Part shown: in pieces, positions 12,887 through 51,753 of the stretch
Numbering within the stretch: position 1 is the first letter of the stretch
Layout: every line of letters starts with the position of its first letter
DNA from: Armatimonadota bacterium
GTDB lineage: Bacteria > Armatimonadota > Fimbriimonadia > Fimbriimonadales > Fimbriimonadaceae
DNA length: 51,753 nt
NCBI GenBank assembly: GCA_016223145.1
Contig: JACRPN010000004.1
Span: 184,755 to 236,507, forward strand
Direction: 5' to 3'
The notes under the pieces: model-generated
Seen by the model: the letters and a program-made list of their open reading frames with translations, nothing else
The model's database searches: none
Told to the model about the DNA's origin: nothing
Translations under genes and position numbers: made by a program

Positions 12887-13110
12887 TGCCTGGGACATTA
12901 GGCATTACGCATTGAGGCATTAGGGCTTTAGGGCATTAGGCATTGGGCATTAGGGCCAGGGTGAATGGCGACCGTATCCTGGAGCCCCCTCCTTGGTTTT
13001 GCGTAGCGAAACTGAGGAGGGGGTTGGGGGAGGAGACTCCGGCCCAACTCATGGCGCACAACCCCTAACGCCCAATGCCTCAATGCCTAATGCCTAATCC
13101 CTAACCCCTA
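12887..13110. repeat. Inverted arrays of GCATTAG-type heptamers flanking a REP-like palindrome
   Basis: The gap between fliD and the convergent permease gene is almost wholly repetitive. The left arm (12891-12955) is a run of GGCATTAG/GGCATTGG-like units. The right arm (13061-13110) is the reverse complement (CCCAATGCCTCAATGCCTAA) and reaches the stop codon of the permease gene. Between them, 12981-13040 holds a GC-rich hairpin pairing CCCCCTCC with GGAGGGGG, followed by TTGGGGGAGG. The whole could fold into one long hairpin and may end transcription from both sides. Confidence 0.75.
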
Positions 13111-32004: not shown

Positions 32005-32069
32005 GGGGTGAGATTACCCAGTGGCAAGTTGTGGAGCGAAGCGCAGATGTGCGGCGATGCAGGGATGAA

Positions 32070-32185
32070 GGAACCGAGGGACAAAGGGGCCGAGGGACAC
32101 AGGGACATAGGGACAAAAGGGACATAGGGACAAGGGGCCCCCCTCACCTTCTCACCTTCTCACCTTCTCACCCTCTCACCCGCTC
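32070..32185. repeat. Octamer arrays: GGGACAAA-type and CTCACCTT-type
   Basis: Two adjoining arrays fill the gap between the start of the hydrolase-like gene and the end of the acyl-CoA synthetase gene. Bases 32075-32136 are degenerate AGGGACAA/AGGGACAT units; bases 32140-32180 are CTCACCTT units repeated five times. The second array runs into the synthetase gene and supplies its stop codon (TGA at 32178-32176 on the minus strand). Unit length 8 bp matches the other arrays in this window. The rest of 32005-32069 shows nothing recognisable. Confidence 0.8.
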
Positions 32186-34884
32186 AGCACCACCACGGCC
32201 CTCAGGTCCTTGACAGCGAGCACGACGTCGTCCTCGACGCGCGGCTCCAGGTCGAACCCGTACTTGCGGAACGTCGCCTGCATCGCGACGTTGTCGGGGG
32301 TGGTCTCGGCGACCAGCCGCTTCACACCCCACGCACGCGCGATCTCCTCAATATAGGTTGTGAACTGGCCGCCCAGCCCCTTGCCCTGCCACTCGTCCAC
32401 CACAAACGCCGCGTACTCTGCCGACACCATGTCGGGGTCCGCGACCATCCGCCCGACACCGATCATCTCTCGGCTCTCGTCACCCTCCACTTCGGCAATG
32501 ATCGCCATCTCGCGGTCGTAGTCGATGTAGCAATAGCGCGCGGCCATCTCGTGGGTGGTTCCCTTGAAAAGGTGCCTGAACCGGAACCGTAGCGATTCCT
32601 GGCTCGCCTTGGCCAGCATGTCGTGCCACATTGGTTCATCTTCGGGCTTGATCGGCCGCAAGAGCACCGGCGTGCCGTCTTTCAGCTTGATGCGGCGGAT
32701 CCATTCGTCAGGATAGGGCGAAATTGCCAGGTGGCTATGCCTGCCAACGGCCTTCCCCACCAGTTCGCGGTCGATGACGACCCGGGCGTCGAGAGCGATC
32801 ACGCCCTCAGGCGTTGCGACCAGCGGGTTGATGTCAATCTCCTTGATCTCAGGGTAGTCGGCGATCAAGTAAGAGAACCGCATCAGCGTCTCGATCAAGC
32901 GGTCCATGTTCACGCCGGGCCTTCCCCGATAGCCGCAAAGCAGCGGGTAGGACTTCAGGCTCTCGAGCATCCGCCGCGCCAGGCTCTCGTTGAGCGGTGG
33001 GAGCCCCAGCGCCTTGTCCTTGAACACTTCGGCGGCAACCCCGCCGGTACCCACCATAATCACAGCACCGAAAGTCGGGTCCTTCTTAGCGCCCAGGATC
33101 AGCTCGTAGCCATCTTTCGACTTCACCATCGCCTGAACGGTCACGCCCTGGACGTCGGCTTCGGGGCGAGCGGCCTTAGCTCGTTGGACGATCTGATCGA
33201 ACGCTTCGCGCACTTCCGCCTCCGATTTCAAGTTCAGGACCACGCCGCCTACGTCGGTTTTGTGGGTGATCTGCGGGCTCAGCACCTTGAGCACCACCGG
33301 AAACCCGACTCGGCGGGCCGCGTCGGAGGCTTCATCGGCGCTTCGCGCCGCCACGGGCCTCGTGACAGGGATCTCATAGGCCTCGAGAAGCGCCTTCGAG
33401 ACGGTCTCCGTCAGGATTTCCTCGCCGTCCATGAGGATGATGTCGAAGAGGTCCCGCAGGCGGCGCCTGTCGAGAGCGAAGTCCATCGGGATGTCTCGCG
33501 GTGTTTCGTGCAGGATCTCCTGGTTGCGCCCATACGAATAAAGATTCATGAACGCCCGCACACCCGCTTCAGGGGTGGAATAGGTTGGCACGCCCGCCTG
33601 GTTCAGAAGCTGAATGCCCCCGGCCATCATGTTGCCGCCCATCCACGCCGCGAGCACGGGCTTCTTGGCATCGGCTGTGAGAGTCGCGAGTGCCTGGGCT
33701 GTCTTGGTTGGGTCGGTCACCGCTTGCGGCGCTAAAATCGCCAGAACCGCGTCGACTCCGGAATCGTGCAGAGCCAACTTCGCGGCCTCGGCGAAGCGCT
33801 CCGGTCCCGAATCTCCCAAGACGTCGACCGGATTGCCATGCGACCACGCCGAAGGGAGCACTGCATCCAGCGCTTCGATGGTGCTTGGATGGAGCTCCGC
33901 AAGCTGCCCGTTCAGCGAGAGAAGCATGTCGGTGGCCATCACGCCGGGTCCGCCCGCGTTGGTGACGATGGCAAGATTGGGCCCACGCACCTGCTTTCTT
34001 CGGCCCAGAAGCTCGGCGCAATCGAAGATGTCGGCGATATCGAAAACTCGCACGATGCCGGCTCGCTGGAATGCCGCGTCGAACACGCTGTCCTCACCCG
34101 CCATCGCGCCGGTATGCGAGGCTGCGGCCTTGGCGCTCTCTGCAAAGCGACCTGCCTTATAGGCGACGATCGGGCGGTTTCGCGCATAGCCTCGGGCGGC
34201 GCTCATGAAACTGCGTGCGTCGCCTAAGGACTCGATGTACATGATCGCCGAATGGTTGTGCCTATCATCGGCGAAATAGTCGATCAGGTCGCCGAAACCC
34301 ACGTCCAGCGCGTTGCCGAGACTCACGAAGTGCGAAAACCCGATCCCTTCGGCGATGGCCCAGTCGAGTACGGACGTGCAGAGCGCGCCGGACTGTGAGA
34401 CGAAACCGATGTGCCCCTCGCGCGGGTTTCCGGCGGCAAAGCTTGCGTTTAATTTGGAGTGCGGGACGATGATGCCGAGGCAGTTCGGTCCGATGATCCG
34501 CATTCCGGGAAACTCCTCCCATGCCGCACGGAGCTCGGCCTCCAGGTCCCGGCCATGCGCCCCGACCTCCCGGAATCCGGCGGAAATGATGATCACGCCG
34601 AGGATGCCGGCATTGCCGCACTCGCGGACCAGTTCGGGTACGCCGGCAGCGGGTGTGGCGATGATCGCGAGATCGGGCACCCGAGGCAGCGAACCCACGG
34701 AAGGATAGGCCTGGCTGCCCTGAACCGACTCGCGCTTCGGGTTCACTGGGTACACGACCCCCTGGAAGCCGGCGCTGATGAGGTTCCTGAGTAGGGCGTA
34801 GCCGACAGTGTTGGGCTTATCGGTCGCACCAATGACGGCGATTCGCTGGGGTTTGAAGATTCGGTCGAGGTTTAAGATGCTCAC
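32176..34884 (-). CDS. ADP-forming acyl-CoA synthetase fused to a GNAT acetyltransferase (Pat-like)
   Basis: 902 residues from GTG at 34884, which follows AGGA by 8 bp and begins VSILNLDRIFKPQRIAVIGA; an in-frame extension to 35058 has poor protein character. Domains: CoA-binding Rossmann fold (about 8-130), succinyl-CoA-ligase-like domain (about 150-450) with SHTGAMAGE (His257), an ATP-grasp domain (about 490-710: LLEAYEIPVTRPVAARSADE, GFPVVLKVLSPQITHKTDVGG, EIDINPLVAT), and a C-terminal GNAT domain (about 735-895: VLLRPIKPEDEPMW, VDEWQGKGLGGQF). The same order occurs in Salmonella Pat/YfiQ protein acetyltransferase. The catalytic His is present here, so acyl-CoA synthesis may be active as well. 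GNAT part likely acetylates acetyl-CoA synthetase. Confidence 0.88.
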   Translation of the reverse strand: MSILNLDRIFKPQRIAVIGATDKPNTVGYALLRNLISAGFQGVVYPVNPKRESVQGSQAYPSVGSLPRVPDLAIIATPAAGVPELVRECGNAGILGVIIISAGFREVGAHGRDLEAELRAAWEEFPGMRIIGPNCLGIIVPHSKLNASFAAGNPREGHIGFVSQSGALCTSVLDWAIAEGIGFSHFVSLGNALDVGFGDLIDYFADDRHNHSAIMYIESLGDARSFMSAARGYARNRPIVAYKAGRFAESAKAAASHTGAMAGEDSVFDAAFQRAGIVRVFDIADIFDCAELLGRRKQVRGPNLAIVTNAGGPGVMATDMLLSLNGQLAELHPSTIEALDAVLPSAWSHGNPVDVLGDSGPERFAEAAKLALHDSGVDAVLAILAPQAVTDPTKTAQALATLTADAKKPVLAAWMGGNMMAGGIQLLNQAGVPTYSTPEAGVRAFMNLYSYGRNQEILHETPRDIPMDFALDRRRLRDLFDIILMDGEEILTETVSKALLEAYEIPVTRPVAARSADEASDAARRVGFPVVLKVLSPQITHKTDVGGVVLNLKSEAEVREAFDQIVQRAKAARPEADVQGVTVQAMVKSKDGYELILGAKKDPTFGAVIMVGTGGVAAEVFKDKALGLPPLNESLARRMLESLKSYPLLCGYRGRPGVNMDRLIETLMRFSYLIADYPEIKEIDINPLVATPEGVIALDARVVIDRELVGKAVGRHSHLAISPYPDEWIRRIKLKDGTPVLLRPIKPEDEPMWHDMLAKASQESLRFRFRHLFKGTTHEMAARYCYIDYDREMAIIAEVEGDESREMIGVGRMVADPDMVSAEYAAFVVDEWQGKGLGGQFTTYIEEIARAWGVKRLVAETTPDNVAMQATFRKYGFDLEPRVEDDVVLAVKDLRAVVVLSG

Positions 34885-36813: not shown

Positions 36814-37566
36814 ATGTCCGACAAAATCCGCGTGACCGTGTGGGGCGAGAACGTCCACGAGCACGAGATGCCGAAGGTCGCCGCCATCTATCCCAAGGGC
36901 ATGCACGGCTGCATCGCCGACGGCCTGAAGGAGGACCCGGCGTTCGACGTCAAGATCGCCACCCTCGACATGCCCGAGCACGGCCTGACCGAAGAGGTCC
37001 TGCTGAACACCGACGTGCTCACCTGGTGGGGCCACGCCGCGCACCACAAAGTCGACGACGCCATCGCCCAGCGCGTGAAGACCCGCGTGCTGGAGGGCAT
37101 GGGGCTGATCGTGCTGCACTCGGGCCACTATTCCAAGATCTTCAAGTGGCTGATGGGCAGTTCGTGCTCGCTCTGCTGGCGCGAGGCCGACGAGCTGGAG
37201 CGCATCTGGATCTGCAATCCCGTGCACCCGATCGTGCAGGGCATCGAGGGGCCCTACTTCGAGATCCCGCAGGAGGAGATGTACGGCGAGCCGTTCGGCA
37301 TCCCCGAGCCCAACGAGACCATCATGATCGGGCACTTCGAGGGCGGCAACGTGTTCCGCTCGGGCGTGGTGTTCCATCGCGGCGCGGGCACGATCTTCTA
37401 TTTCCAGCCCGGCCACGAGACCTACCCGATCTACCACCAGAAGGAGATCAAGCTGATCCTGAAGAACGCGGCGAAGTACGTCGTGCCGAAGGGTCCGCGG
37501 TGGATCGACCAGGCGCCGCACATCCCGAAGGAGCAGGCGCCGGATCCCATTGCGGTGAAGGGATAG
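36814..37566 (+). CDS. ThuA domain protein
   Basis: 250 residues, cytoplasmic. The start IRVTVWGENVHEHEMPKVAA is close to the trehalose-utilisation protein ThuA (VVWNEFRHE-type start), followed by YPKGMHGCIADGL, TDVLTWWGHAAHHKV, GLIVLHSGHYSKIF, a central YFEIPQEEMYGEPF and GAGTIFYFQPGHETYP. ThuA has a class I glutamine-amidotransferase-like fold and is used in sugar catabolism. The His-rich conserved positions are present. The gene stands alone: an ATP-grasp gene follows after a 248-bp repeat island. An array begins immediately after the stop. The sugar substrate is unknown. Confidence 0.87.
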   Translation: MSDKIRVTVWGENVHEHEMPKVAAIYPKGMHGCIADGLKEDPAFDVKIATLDMPEHGLTEEVLLNTDVLTWWGHAAHHKVDDAIAQRVKTRVLEGMGLIVLHSGHYSKIFKWLMGSSCSLCWREADELERIWICNPVHPIVQGIEGPYFEIPQEEMYGEPFGIPEPNETIMIGHFEGGNVFRSGVVFHRGAGTIFYFQPGHETYPIYHQKEIKLILKNAAKYVVPKGPRWIDQAPHIPKEQAPDPIAVKG

Positions 37567-37680
37567 GGACCGAGGAACCAAGGGACAAAGGGACAAAGGG
37601 ACGGAGGGACGAAGGGACGAAGGGACAAAGGGACGGAGGGACAAAGGGACGGAAGGACCGTCCGAGGTCCGAGTTGTGGC
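37567..37680. repeat. AGGGACAA octamer array downstream of thuA
   Basis: About nine to ten octamers of the form GGGACAAA/GGGACGGA/GGGACGAA run from 37566 to 37655, then switch to AGGTCCG heptamers (37656-37675). Unit length is near constant while the last two or three bases vary. The array starts two bases after the thuA stop codon. Confidence 0.85.
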
Positions 37681-49831: not shown

Positions 49832-49980
49832 GGCCTCGGCGCCGCCGCGGCGCAACTTTGCGAATGAGCCGACCCAAGCCGCAGAACATCCTGACCTCCA
49901 CCGCAGGGTCCGCATCGGCGATGGCCACCCTCGTGTCGGAAATCGAGCGCATTCCCACGCCTGAGGAGCAGCTTCAACCC

Positions 49981-51486
49981 ATGCCCAACGACAGTTTCGA
50001 TTGCGACGTCTGCGTCATCGGCGCCGGACCCGGCGGCTATGTCGCCGCGATCCGCGCCGCCCAACTTGGAGCCAAAGTCGTCGTCGTCGAGAAGGAATAT
50101 CTGGGGGGCACATGCCTGAACTGGGGCTGCATCCCCAGTAAGGCGATGATCGCCAGCGTCGAGCGCTTGCAGCACATCCAGCACGCCGACAAGCTCGCGG
50201 TCGAAGTGCCCGACGGCGCCAAAGTGAACTTCGAGAAGTTCTCGGCGCGGCGAGACAAGATCGTTCAGACTCAGCGCGGCGGCATCGGCATCCTCTTCAA
50301 GAAGAACAACATCCGGCACATCGAGGGCTTCGCCAAGTTCGTCGATGCTCATACGATCGAGATCGGCCCGTGGGAAGGTCCGAGGTCTGAGGTCCGAGGA
50401 CCGGAGGGACAAGGGGACAAAGGACCCTCCGAACCTAACACCCAGAACCCAACACCTAACACCACGCAGCAGCGCCTCTCCGCCAAGAACTTCGTCCTCG
50501 CCATGGGCTCGTCGTGCATTCGCCTGAACATCCCCGGCCTCGAAGGCGGCCGCGAGGAAGGCGTCTGGACCTCCGACGACGCCGTGACCGCTCCATTCGT
50601 GCCCACCTCCATGCTCATCCTCGGCGGCGGCGCGGTCGGCGTGGAGTTCGGCTACGTGTTCAACGGCCTGGGCAGCAAGGTCACCGTGGTCGAAATGATG
50701 CCGAACCTGATTCCCACCATGGACACGGACCTTGGCGTCGAACTGGGCAAGCTCCTGGGACGACAGGGCATCAAGGTCCACACCGGGGCCACCCTCGAGA
50801 GGGCCGAGAAGACCAAGGACGGCTGGAAGTGCACCGTCAAGAAGGGCACGGAGGTCGAAGAGATCGAGGTGCAGGTGGTGCTGCTGGGTGTCGGGCGGAA
50901 GGCCAACACCGAGGGCATGGACCTGGAGAAAATCGGCGTCAAGCTGCACCGGCGCGGGGTCGAAGTGGTGGACGACAGCCTAAAAACCCACTGCCCAAAC
51001 GTTTACGCCATCGGCGACGTGACCGGGCGCATCCAGCTTGCCCACGTGGCGAGCGCCGAGGGCATCCACGCTGTGACCAACATCCTCACGGGGGCAGACA
51101 AGCAGTTCGATTACCGGGCCGTTCCAAGCTGCGTCTACACCGTGCCCGAGGTCGCCAGCGTGGGGCTCACCCAAAGCGAGGCGGAGGCGCAGGGCCGCGA
51201 CGTGACGGTCGGCAAGTTTCTGTTCCGCCCCCTGGGCAAGGCCATGGCGATCGCCGAGCAGGATGGCTTTGTCAAGGTGGTAGCAGACAAACAGTACGGC
51301 GAGGTGCTGGGCGTGCACATGATTGGGGCTCACGTGACCGATATGATCGCCGCCGGGGTTGCCGCCATCAAGATGGAAGCCACGTTGGAGGTGATGGCGG
51401 AGACGATCCACGCGCATCCCACGATGGCCGAGGCGATGCTGGAGGCCTACGAAGACGCCATGGGGCATGCCATCCATAAAGCGTAG
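49981..51486 (+). CDS. lpdA: Dihydrolipoamide dehydrogenase with an in-frame repeat-derived insertion
   Basis: 501 residues from ATG at 49981; ATGs at 49864 and 49921 are in frame and cannot be excluded. 49981 places the FAD-binding CVIGAGPGGYVAAIRAAQLG near the N-terminus, as usual. Redox-active disulfide C45-x4-C50 in GGTCLNWGCIPSKAM; NAD domain LILGGGAVGVEFGYVFNGLG; FAD contact VYAIGDVTG; C-terminal interface HAHPTMAEAMLEAYEDA with the catalytic His-Glu. E3 reoxidises lipoamide in 2-oxoacid dehydrogenase or glycine-cleavage complexes. Residues ~134-165 (PRSEVRGPEGQGDKGPSEPN and following) are an extra hydrophilic loop encoded by a repeat array like those in intergenic gaps. No E1/E2 genes in the window. 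Confidence 0.93.
   Translation: MPNDSFDCDVCVIGAGPGGYVAAIRAAQLGAKVVVVEKEYLGGTCLNWGCIPSKAMIASVERLQHIQHADKLAVEVPDGAKVNFEKFSARRDKIVQTQRGGIGILFKKNNIRHIEGFAKFVDAHTIEIGPWEGPRSEVRGPEGQGDKGPSEPNTQNPTPNTTQQRLSAKNFVLAMGSSCIRLNIPGLEGGREEGVWTSDDAVTAPFVPTSMLILGGGAVGVEFGYVFNGLGSKVTVVEMMPNLIPTMDTDLGVELGKLLGRQGIKVHTGATLERAEKTKDGWKCTVKKGTEVEEIEVQVVLLGVGRKANTEGMDLEKIGVKLHRRGVEVVDDSLKTHCPNVYAIGDVTGRIQLAHVASAEGIHAVTNILTGADKQFDYRAVPSCVYTVPEVASVGLTQSEAEAQGRDVTVGKFLFRPLGKAMAIAEQDGFVKVVADKQYGEVLGVHMIGAHVTDMIAAGVAAIKMEATLEVMAETIHAHPTMAEAMLEAYEDAMGHAIHKA
50377..50472 (+). repeat. Repeat array inside lpdA
   Basis: About 96 bases within lpdA consist of AGGTCCG/AGGTCTG heptamers (50377-50404), GGGACAAG/GGGACAAA octamers (50406-50423) and then CTAACACC/CAACACC units (50434-50466). 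The same unit types form intergenic arrays at 32075, 37567 and 51487. The reading frame stays open, adding ~32 residues. Outside this stretch the protein aligns with normal E3 sequence. Confidence 0.8.
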
Positions 51487-51753
51487 GAGCGAGGTCCGAG
51501 GTCGGAGGGTCTGGGTTTTCAGGTTCTCAGGTTCTCAGGTTCTCAGGTCTTCAGGTTTTCAGGGTTTCAGGGTTTGGGACCGGAATCACCTTGCCCCTTG
51601 AGTCGGTCAGTAGGTCTGTCGGTTGGAGGGCGGACCGGTAGCCGCCGGTTCCGTGCCTGCGCTGGAGTTCGTAGGTTCTCAGGTCTGTAGTTCCGGAACC
51701 ACCTCGCCCCTCGTGGGAGAGGTCGGTGAGCGCAGCGAACCGGGTGAGGGGGC
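51487..51753. repeat. TCAGGTTC octamer array and REP-like sequence at the right edge
   Basis: No gene is seen here. After AGGTCCG heptamers (51491-51506), a run of TCAGGTTC/TCAGGTTT/TCAGGGTT octamers spans 51515-51576. A less regular segment follows, with a GACCGGTAGCCGCCGGTTCC palindrome near 51634-51653 and another TCAGG copy near 51677. The end (51706-51753) has CGCCCCTCGTGGGAGAGG then GTGAGCGCAGCGAAC, matching the REP-like tail at 37728-37748. Confidence 0.75.

Follow-up and report, generated by a model that had tools for sequence, protein, structure and literature searches.

The gene for dihydrolipoyl dehydrogenase (E3) in a 3.9-Mb Armatimonadota genome raises the question of how short tandem repeats, of a kind more often found between genes, came to stand within a core enzyme, and whether they are translated there. 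The gene, lpdA, lies at 49864..51486 on the forward strand of the window, i.e., the whole stretch of 51,753 nucleotides that was analysed. Its assignment is based on the open reading frame, whose start codon is inferred (the ATG further on, at 49981, is an alternative), and on the match of its 540-aa product to TIGR01350, which scored 520.9 bits in a profile search against an equivalog cut-off of 408.8. The Pyr_redox_2 and dimerisation domains were also matched by profile search, and the redox residues C84/C89 (CxxxxC) and the C-terminal HxHPT motif (H516, H518, P519, T520) are all present and invariant in the alignment, which, together with the score above the cut-off, places the product within E3. 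No second full E3 gene was found in the genome, where lpdA is the only recognisable lipoamide dehydrogenase gene. Given that it is the sole E3 found, the enzyme bearing the insert is probably still functional. The reading frame is unbroken across the whole insert, and the sequence is conserved on either flank.

The alignments place the insert at 50365..50472 (forward strand), where residues 168-203 stand in place of the 7-residue turn that is usual in the relatives. Between I167 and R204 there are 36 residues, against 7 in most relatives, which is a net gain of 29 rather than the 32 proposed in an earlier note on this DNA, although the hydrophilic character that it ascribed to the added loop stands. 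The site is the turn of a beta-hairpin of the FAD domain, which in the relatives mostly reads KDGKK (EKDGKKE or similar), and their matches to the lpdA product are interrupted at 167-168 and 202-203. The loop was found in none of the ~40 aligned homologues, which came from whole genomes and additional genome contigs, and nearly all of them have a clean gap, which the earlier note had named as support for a recent insertion; the same loop, looked for in distant E3 proteins as well, is carried by none of them. The closest named relatives in this comparison are Armatimonadota MAGs labelled Chthonomonas, Chthonomonadaceae and Fimbriimonadaceae, and the pattern supports an insertion that would postdate the split from all of the sampled relatives. 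Shorter and unrelated expansions of the same turn occur in the E3 of one sampled genome (G013) and in a Phycisphaerales homologue, in keeping with the earlier proposal that this surface loop tolerates insertion. The AlphaFold model of the product (18-sequence alignment, mean pLDDT 82.9) assigns a pLDDT below 50 to residues 173-200, between confident strands at 164-168 and 203-212. In this model, a check suggested in the earlier note, the loop is predicted to be disordered, a low pLDDT being consistent with disorder and not proof of it.

At the DNA level, three kinds of unit form a mosaic at positions 50374-50466 of the window, namely AGGTCYG heptamers, GGGACAAR octamers and a C-rich unit. The heptamer part (50376..50399, forward strand) reads AGGTCCG AGGTCTG AGGTCCG AGG, i.e., two exact copies of AGGTCCG, at 50376 and 50390, with a single AGGTCTG in between, and it recurs at many sites of the genome. 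The octamer part (50405..50421, forward strand) reads GGGACAAG GGGACAAA, in which the second unit is an exact copy (50414) and the first a variant of it, and its octamers are also found in the arrays at 32068-32137 and 37565-37658. An in-frame array of heptamers and octamers had been described before, a description that holds for these two parts and left unnamed the third (50432..50466, forward strand), which is of the AACACCC/CCTAACACC type, reads AACCTAACACCCAGAACCCAACACCTAACACC, makes up about one third of the insert and has only weak matches at other sites of the genome (best E 0.005). Within the window, GGGACAAA is enriched (8 copies observed, 1.46 expected), and the isolated 7-mer AGGTCCG is not (10 observed, 9.45 expected). 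Partial matches to the 111-bp insert region occur at 69 other sites of the genome (best E 2e-7); nearly all are to the heptamer part, and some extend into the octamers. No full-length second copy was found there, so that the donor of the insert cannot be named.

A frame-blind DNA search for the heptamers returned 51 matches in this genome, which were grouped by hand into 37 loci, and no heptamer arrays in 24 other genomes, two congeners included. The heptamers are degenerate, organized in tandem and dispersed over the genome, more often between genes than within them, given that 14 of the 37 loci lie in frame within genes and the remainder were classed as intergenic or undecided. Most arrays have 2-4 units in one direction, and some are inverted head-to-head, in the same sense in six of six pairs, which hints at strand switching. 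Within the window, an intergenic array lies directly 3' of lpdA (51488..51575, forward strand), with AGGTCCG followed by GGTTYTCA octamers (51514-51575, period 8, score 82). A further intergenic array, of GGGAC octamers with AGGTCCG at its end, occupies 37565..37671 (tandem repeat score 132), and tandem repeat detection also found GGGACAAA octamers followed by CTCACCTT octamers at 32068..32186, both on the forward strand. Another heptamer family is present at 12896-13104, where a CATTAGG array and, ~110 bp on, a CCTAATG array form an inverted pair. REP-like sequences (GGTTCCGTGCC; CACCTCGCCCC...GGTCGGTGAGCG) stand at the contig end (51640-51753), and a sequence resembling this stretch appears to be translated within Era and DnaE of the same genome. 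A literature search on repeats in Armatimonadetes gave nothing relevant.

The earlier note had described a single event, in lpdA, which is real, and some twenty or more events of this kind are found in the genome as sampled. A codon-usage test and inspection of the translations identified 22-23 genes whose coding frame continues from one flank of an array to the other without meeting a stop, in a sample made up of the stretches around array hits (565 kb including the window) rather than a rebuilt whole genome. As some of these stretches came from a translated query, this number is biased as a rate, for which 14 of 37 is the better estimate. The genes include Era, MiaB, PheT, urocanase, UbiD, PFOR, aspartase, dGTPase and PepF (twice). 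By comparison with 5-8 relatives each, the insert has ~92 aa in MiaB, between the UPF0004 and radical-SAM domains, ~42 aa in Era, ahead of the KH domain, 25 aa in UbiD (heptamer array), 20 aa in PheT and 17 aa in aspartase/fumarase, and PepF has inserts at two sites. By comparison with solved structures, the inserts have 25 aa in urocanase, falling between residues 157 and 158 of chain 1x87_A, ~40 aa in dGTPase and ~6 aa in PFOR. The alignment of GcvPA at its array is less clean. In most of the remaining genes, curated families match across the array or on both of its flanks, and in a few (e.g., L114, L123 and L124) the array lies beyond or at the margin of the conserved domain. The inserts differ between genes in length and composition, and unit families are mixed within one insert in Era, MiaB and PheT, as in lpdA. 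Given these comparisons, functional enzymes appear to have gained floppy loops from the repeats. When other repeat families were counted in frame with simple patterns, little was found. A DnaE-type DNA polymerase III alpha gene (L152:2863-7818), an open frame of 1652 codons, apparently has several repeat-derived stretches of different families, and UbiD (L150:2545-4317) has two more low-complexity insertions relative to its relatives, apparently of other repeat families.

The reading preferred here, and a fairly probable one, is that array DNA specific to this lineage was copied into genes and kept only where frame and fold survived. The part that concerns insertion and translation is very likely, while the copying mechanism falls a little short of an even chance. 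The arrays had been suggested earlier to be mobile or to expand by copying, and new sites have indeed been occupied in this lineage, although no discrete element, terminal repeat or target duplication was found at lpdA, where the nearest relatives, at no more than 77% identity, are too diverged for target duplications or microhomology to be read at the junctions. Transposition, template-switch copying or local expansion would each be a possible route to new array sites.

In the first of these routes, a discrete small mobile element of the MITE, REP or Rickettsia palindromic element (RPE) type would have been mobilised in trans by a transposase, e.g., one of the Y1 transposases present in the genome. 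This is rather unlikely, although the genome has 12 Y1_Tnp matches against 4 in each congener, the inverted array pairs share one sense, and a REP-like unit stands in frame in the UbiD of the congener G001. Full-length copies of the lpdA insert are lacking elsewhere, its imperfect inverted repeat (50397..50436; 12-nt arms, 83% complementary, 16 nt spacing) is weak, and the whole insert as DNA shows no significant folding (z -1.34), given that 22 of 200 shuffles fold equally well. Most arrays, moreover, are short one-direction runs, and Y1 transposases are also found in relatives without heptamer arrays. The interpretation of the insert as a palindromic element was rejected given that its z of -1.34 does not indicate a stable hairpin. 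The Y1 transposases stand at 12 places in this genome (e.g., L182; one near MiaB, L126), and their link to the arrays is not a specific one.

The insert in the UbiD of G001 (L236) is palindromic, differs from that of the genome studied here and lies in another loop. In the UbiD of G002 (L237), ~3.5 tandem copies of a 111-bp (37-codon) unit stand at the same place as the G001 insert; the downstream part is in another frame, and one copy is 1 base shorter in a G run, so that either this gene has been disrupted or the base was miscounted in sequencing. In-frame repeat insertion may extend across the genus, with different sequences.

On the other hand, the insert may have grown locally, from a short chance seed in the lpdA turn that replication slippage lengthened at the site itself, no copy from another locus being involved. 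Tandem units of varying copy number are typical of slippage, and the 111-bp unit of the G002 UbiD was multiplied in place, but this explanation is unlikely, given that the lpdA insert combines unit families that form arrays elsewhere, which in-place growth would have to reinvent, and that several other inserts are also mixed. The seed words are absent from the orthologous sites in 43 of the 45 sequences of relatives and present in 2. Given the 43 sequences without seeds and the mixed unit families, copying from dispersed arrays, followed by slippage, is preferred over growth from a local seed.

Under this preferred reading of copying followed by selection, the lineage harbours dispersed and degenerate tandem arrays of AGGTCYG heptamers, GGGACNNN octamers and others, from which a stretch would occasionally be copied to a new location. 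The spread would be ectopic, through template switching or break repair with the dispersed arrays as donors, and slippage would follow. An array that entered a gene would survive only if its length kept the frame, no stop was read and the site was a surface turn or an interdomain linker, and the lpdA insert would be one such survivor, in which three successive array types are translated as a hairpin loop of the FAD domain. As 7 and 8 are not multiples of three, an array of such units yields one and the same short peptide cycle in each of the three frames (GPRSEVR for AGGTCCG, GPRTSDL for its reverse), and both of these cycles are hydrophilic and free of stops, so that the resulting peptide is loop-like in any frame. 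The frame of entry is therefore irrelevant, and the total length alone counts. The more ambitious proposal, that the arrays are an active copying system specific to this lineage, and a frame-neutral generator of loops in the core proteome rather than passive junk, is doubtful.

In the sampled stretches, no single gene was found to have its frame broken by an array; eight candidates seemed to be gaps between two different genes or gave a weak coding signal. Under a random frame, 22 of 22 arrays in frame would have a probability of ~3e-11, a value that is partly built in, since the detection rule demands an open frame and the search for frame breaks is the only safeguard. AGGTCTG, which can yield TGA, accounts for 3 of the 26 coding-strand units in the array genes, where it is never in frame, and for 67 of 155 units outside them (p 0.002). 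Units in the reverse orientation, which is stop-free, outnumber the others in these genes by 66 to 26; p-values for such unit counts are optimistic, given that the units of one array are not independent. The lack of frame-breaking arrays and the depletion of TGA-bearing units on coding strands favour translation over misassembly, splicing or decay. Taken together, these results are consistent with translation and purifying selection and agree poorly with misassembly, splicing or ribosomal bypass.

An assembly or binning artefact, in which repeats were wrongly joined into lpdA, is highly improbable. The assembly consists of 23 contigs, the window stops at a contig end ~270 bp 3' of lpdA, and two contigs start at or near arrays, but conserved sequence resumes immediately after each of the 22-23 stop-free inserts, in different genes, whereas random errors would break the frame two-thirds of the time, and the arrays avoid stop codons. 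The earlier note had raised an error at this site as a possibility, against which these similar in-frame cases weigh. That the insert is missing from the final protein, through intron or intein removal or ribosome skipping, is scarcely credible even though a core enzyme is split at a clean point, given that RNA removal or bypass needs neither a length that is a multiple of three nor freedom from stops, both of which hold in the sampled genes, and that these ~90 bp of simple repeats have no intein or intron features.

If copying followed by selection is the true explanation, an Armatimonadota lineage far from Rickettsia has gained repeat-coded loops in about twenty or more conserved enzymes and GTPases, which would provide a natural map of insertion tolerance in E3, Era, MiaB, PheT and others, and a genome suited to asking how repeats of 7-8 bp spread. 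Annotation and structure prediction are also affected, given that such loops resemble artefacts and yet appear to be kept in frame by selection.

Short dispersed repeats are also typical of REP/REPIN sequences and MITEs, and the palindromic unit in the UbiD of G001 is REP-like, but the heptamer arrays have no demonstrated defined terminal inverted repeats, target duplication or linked transposase. The RPEs, discrete elements ~150 bp long whose families have a palindrome and a conserved peptide, stand in frame in many unrelated conserved genes and are apparently translated, with the enzymes still working (PMC10969869). The arrays described here share with them the presence of short dispersed repeats in frame in unrelated genes, but as mosaics of tandem 7-8-bp units they vary, sharing neither length nor ends. 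For the lpdA insert only partial matches, rather than a discrete full-length unit with a conserved peptide, were found in its own genome, and this insert is not a significant palindrome. Heptameric G-rich repeats are known in Xanthomonas (GGGAATC) and Nostoc (GGGGAYT), and about a third of those of Nostoc overlap genes (PMC4692102). Like these, the present heptamers are degenerate, dispersed and in tandem, mostly of few units and mostly intergenic, with 14 of 37 in genes. They differ in that the unit, AGGTCYG, lacks stretches of at least three G, several unit families are joined in one insert, insertion into conserved enzymes is shown by comparison with relatives, and the arrays are confined to one species among the 25 sampled. 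The RPEs are the closest parallel in effect, and the Nostoc and Xanthomonas heptamers are the closest sequence type. Repeats within genes are known in outline from the RPEs and from the intragenic heptamers of Nostoc, and it is the sequence class, the lineage and the range of core enzymes that look new here.
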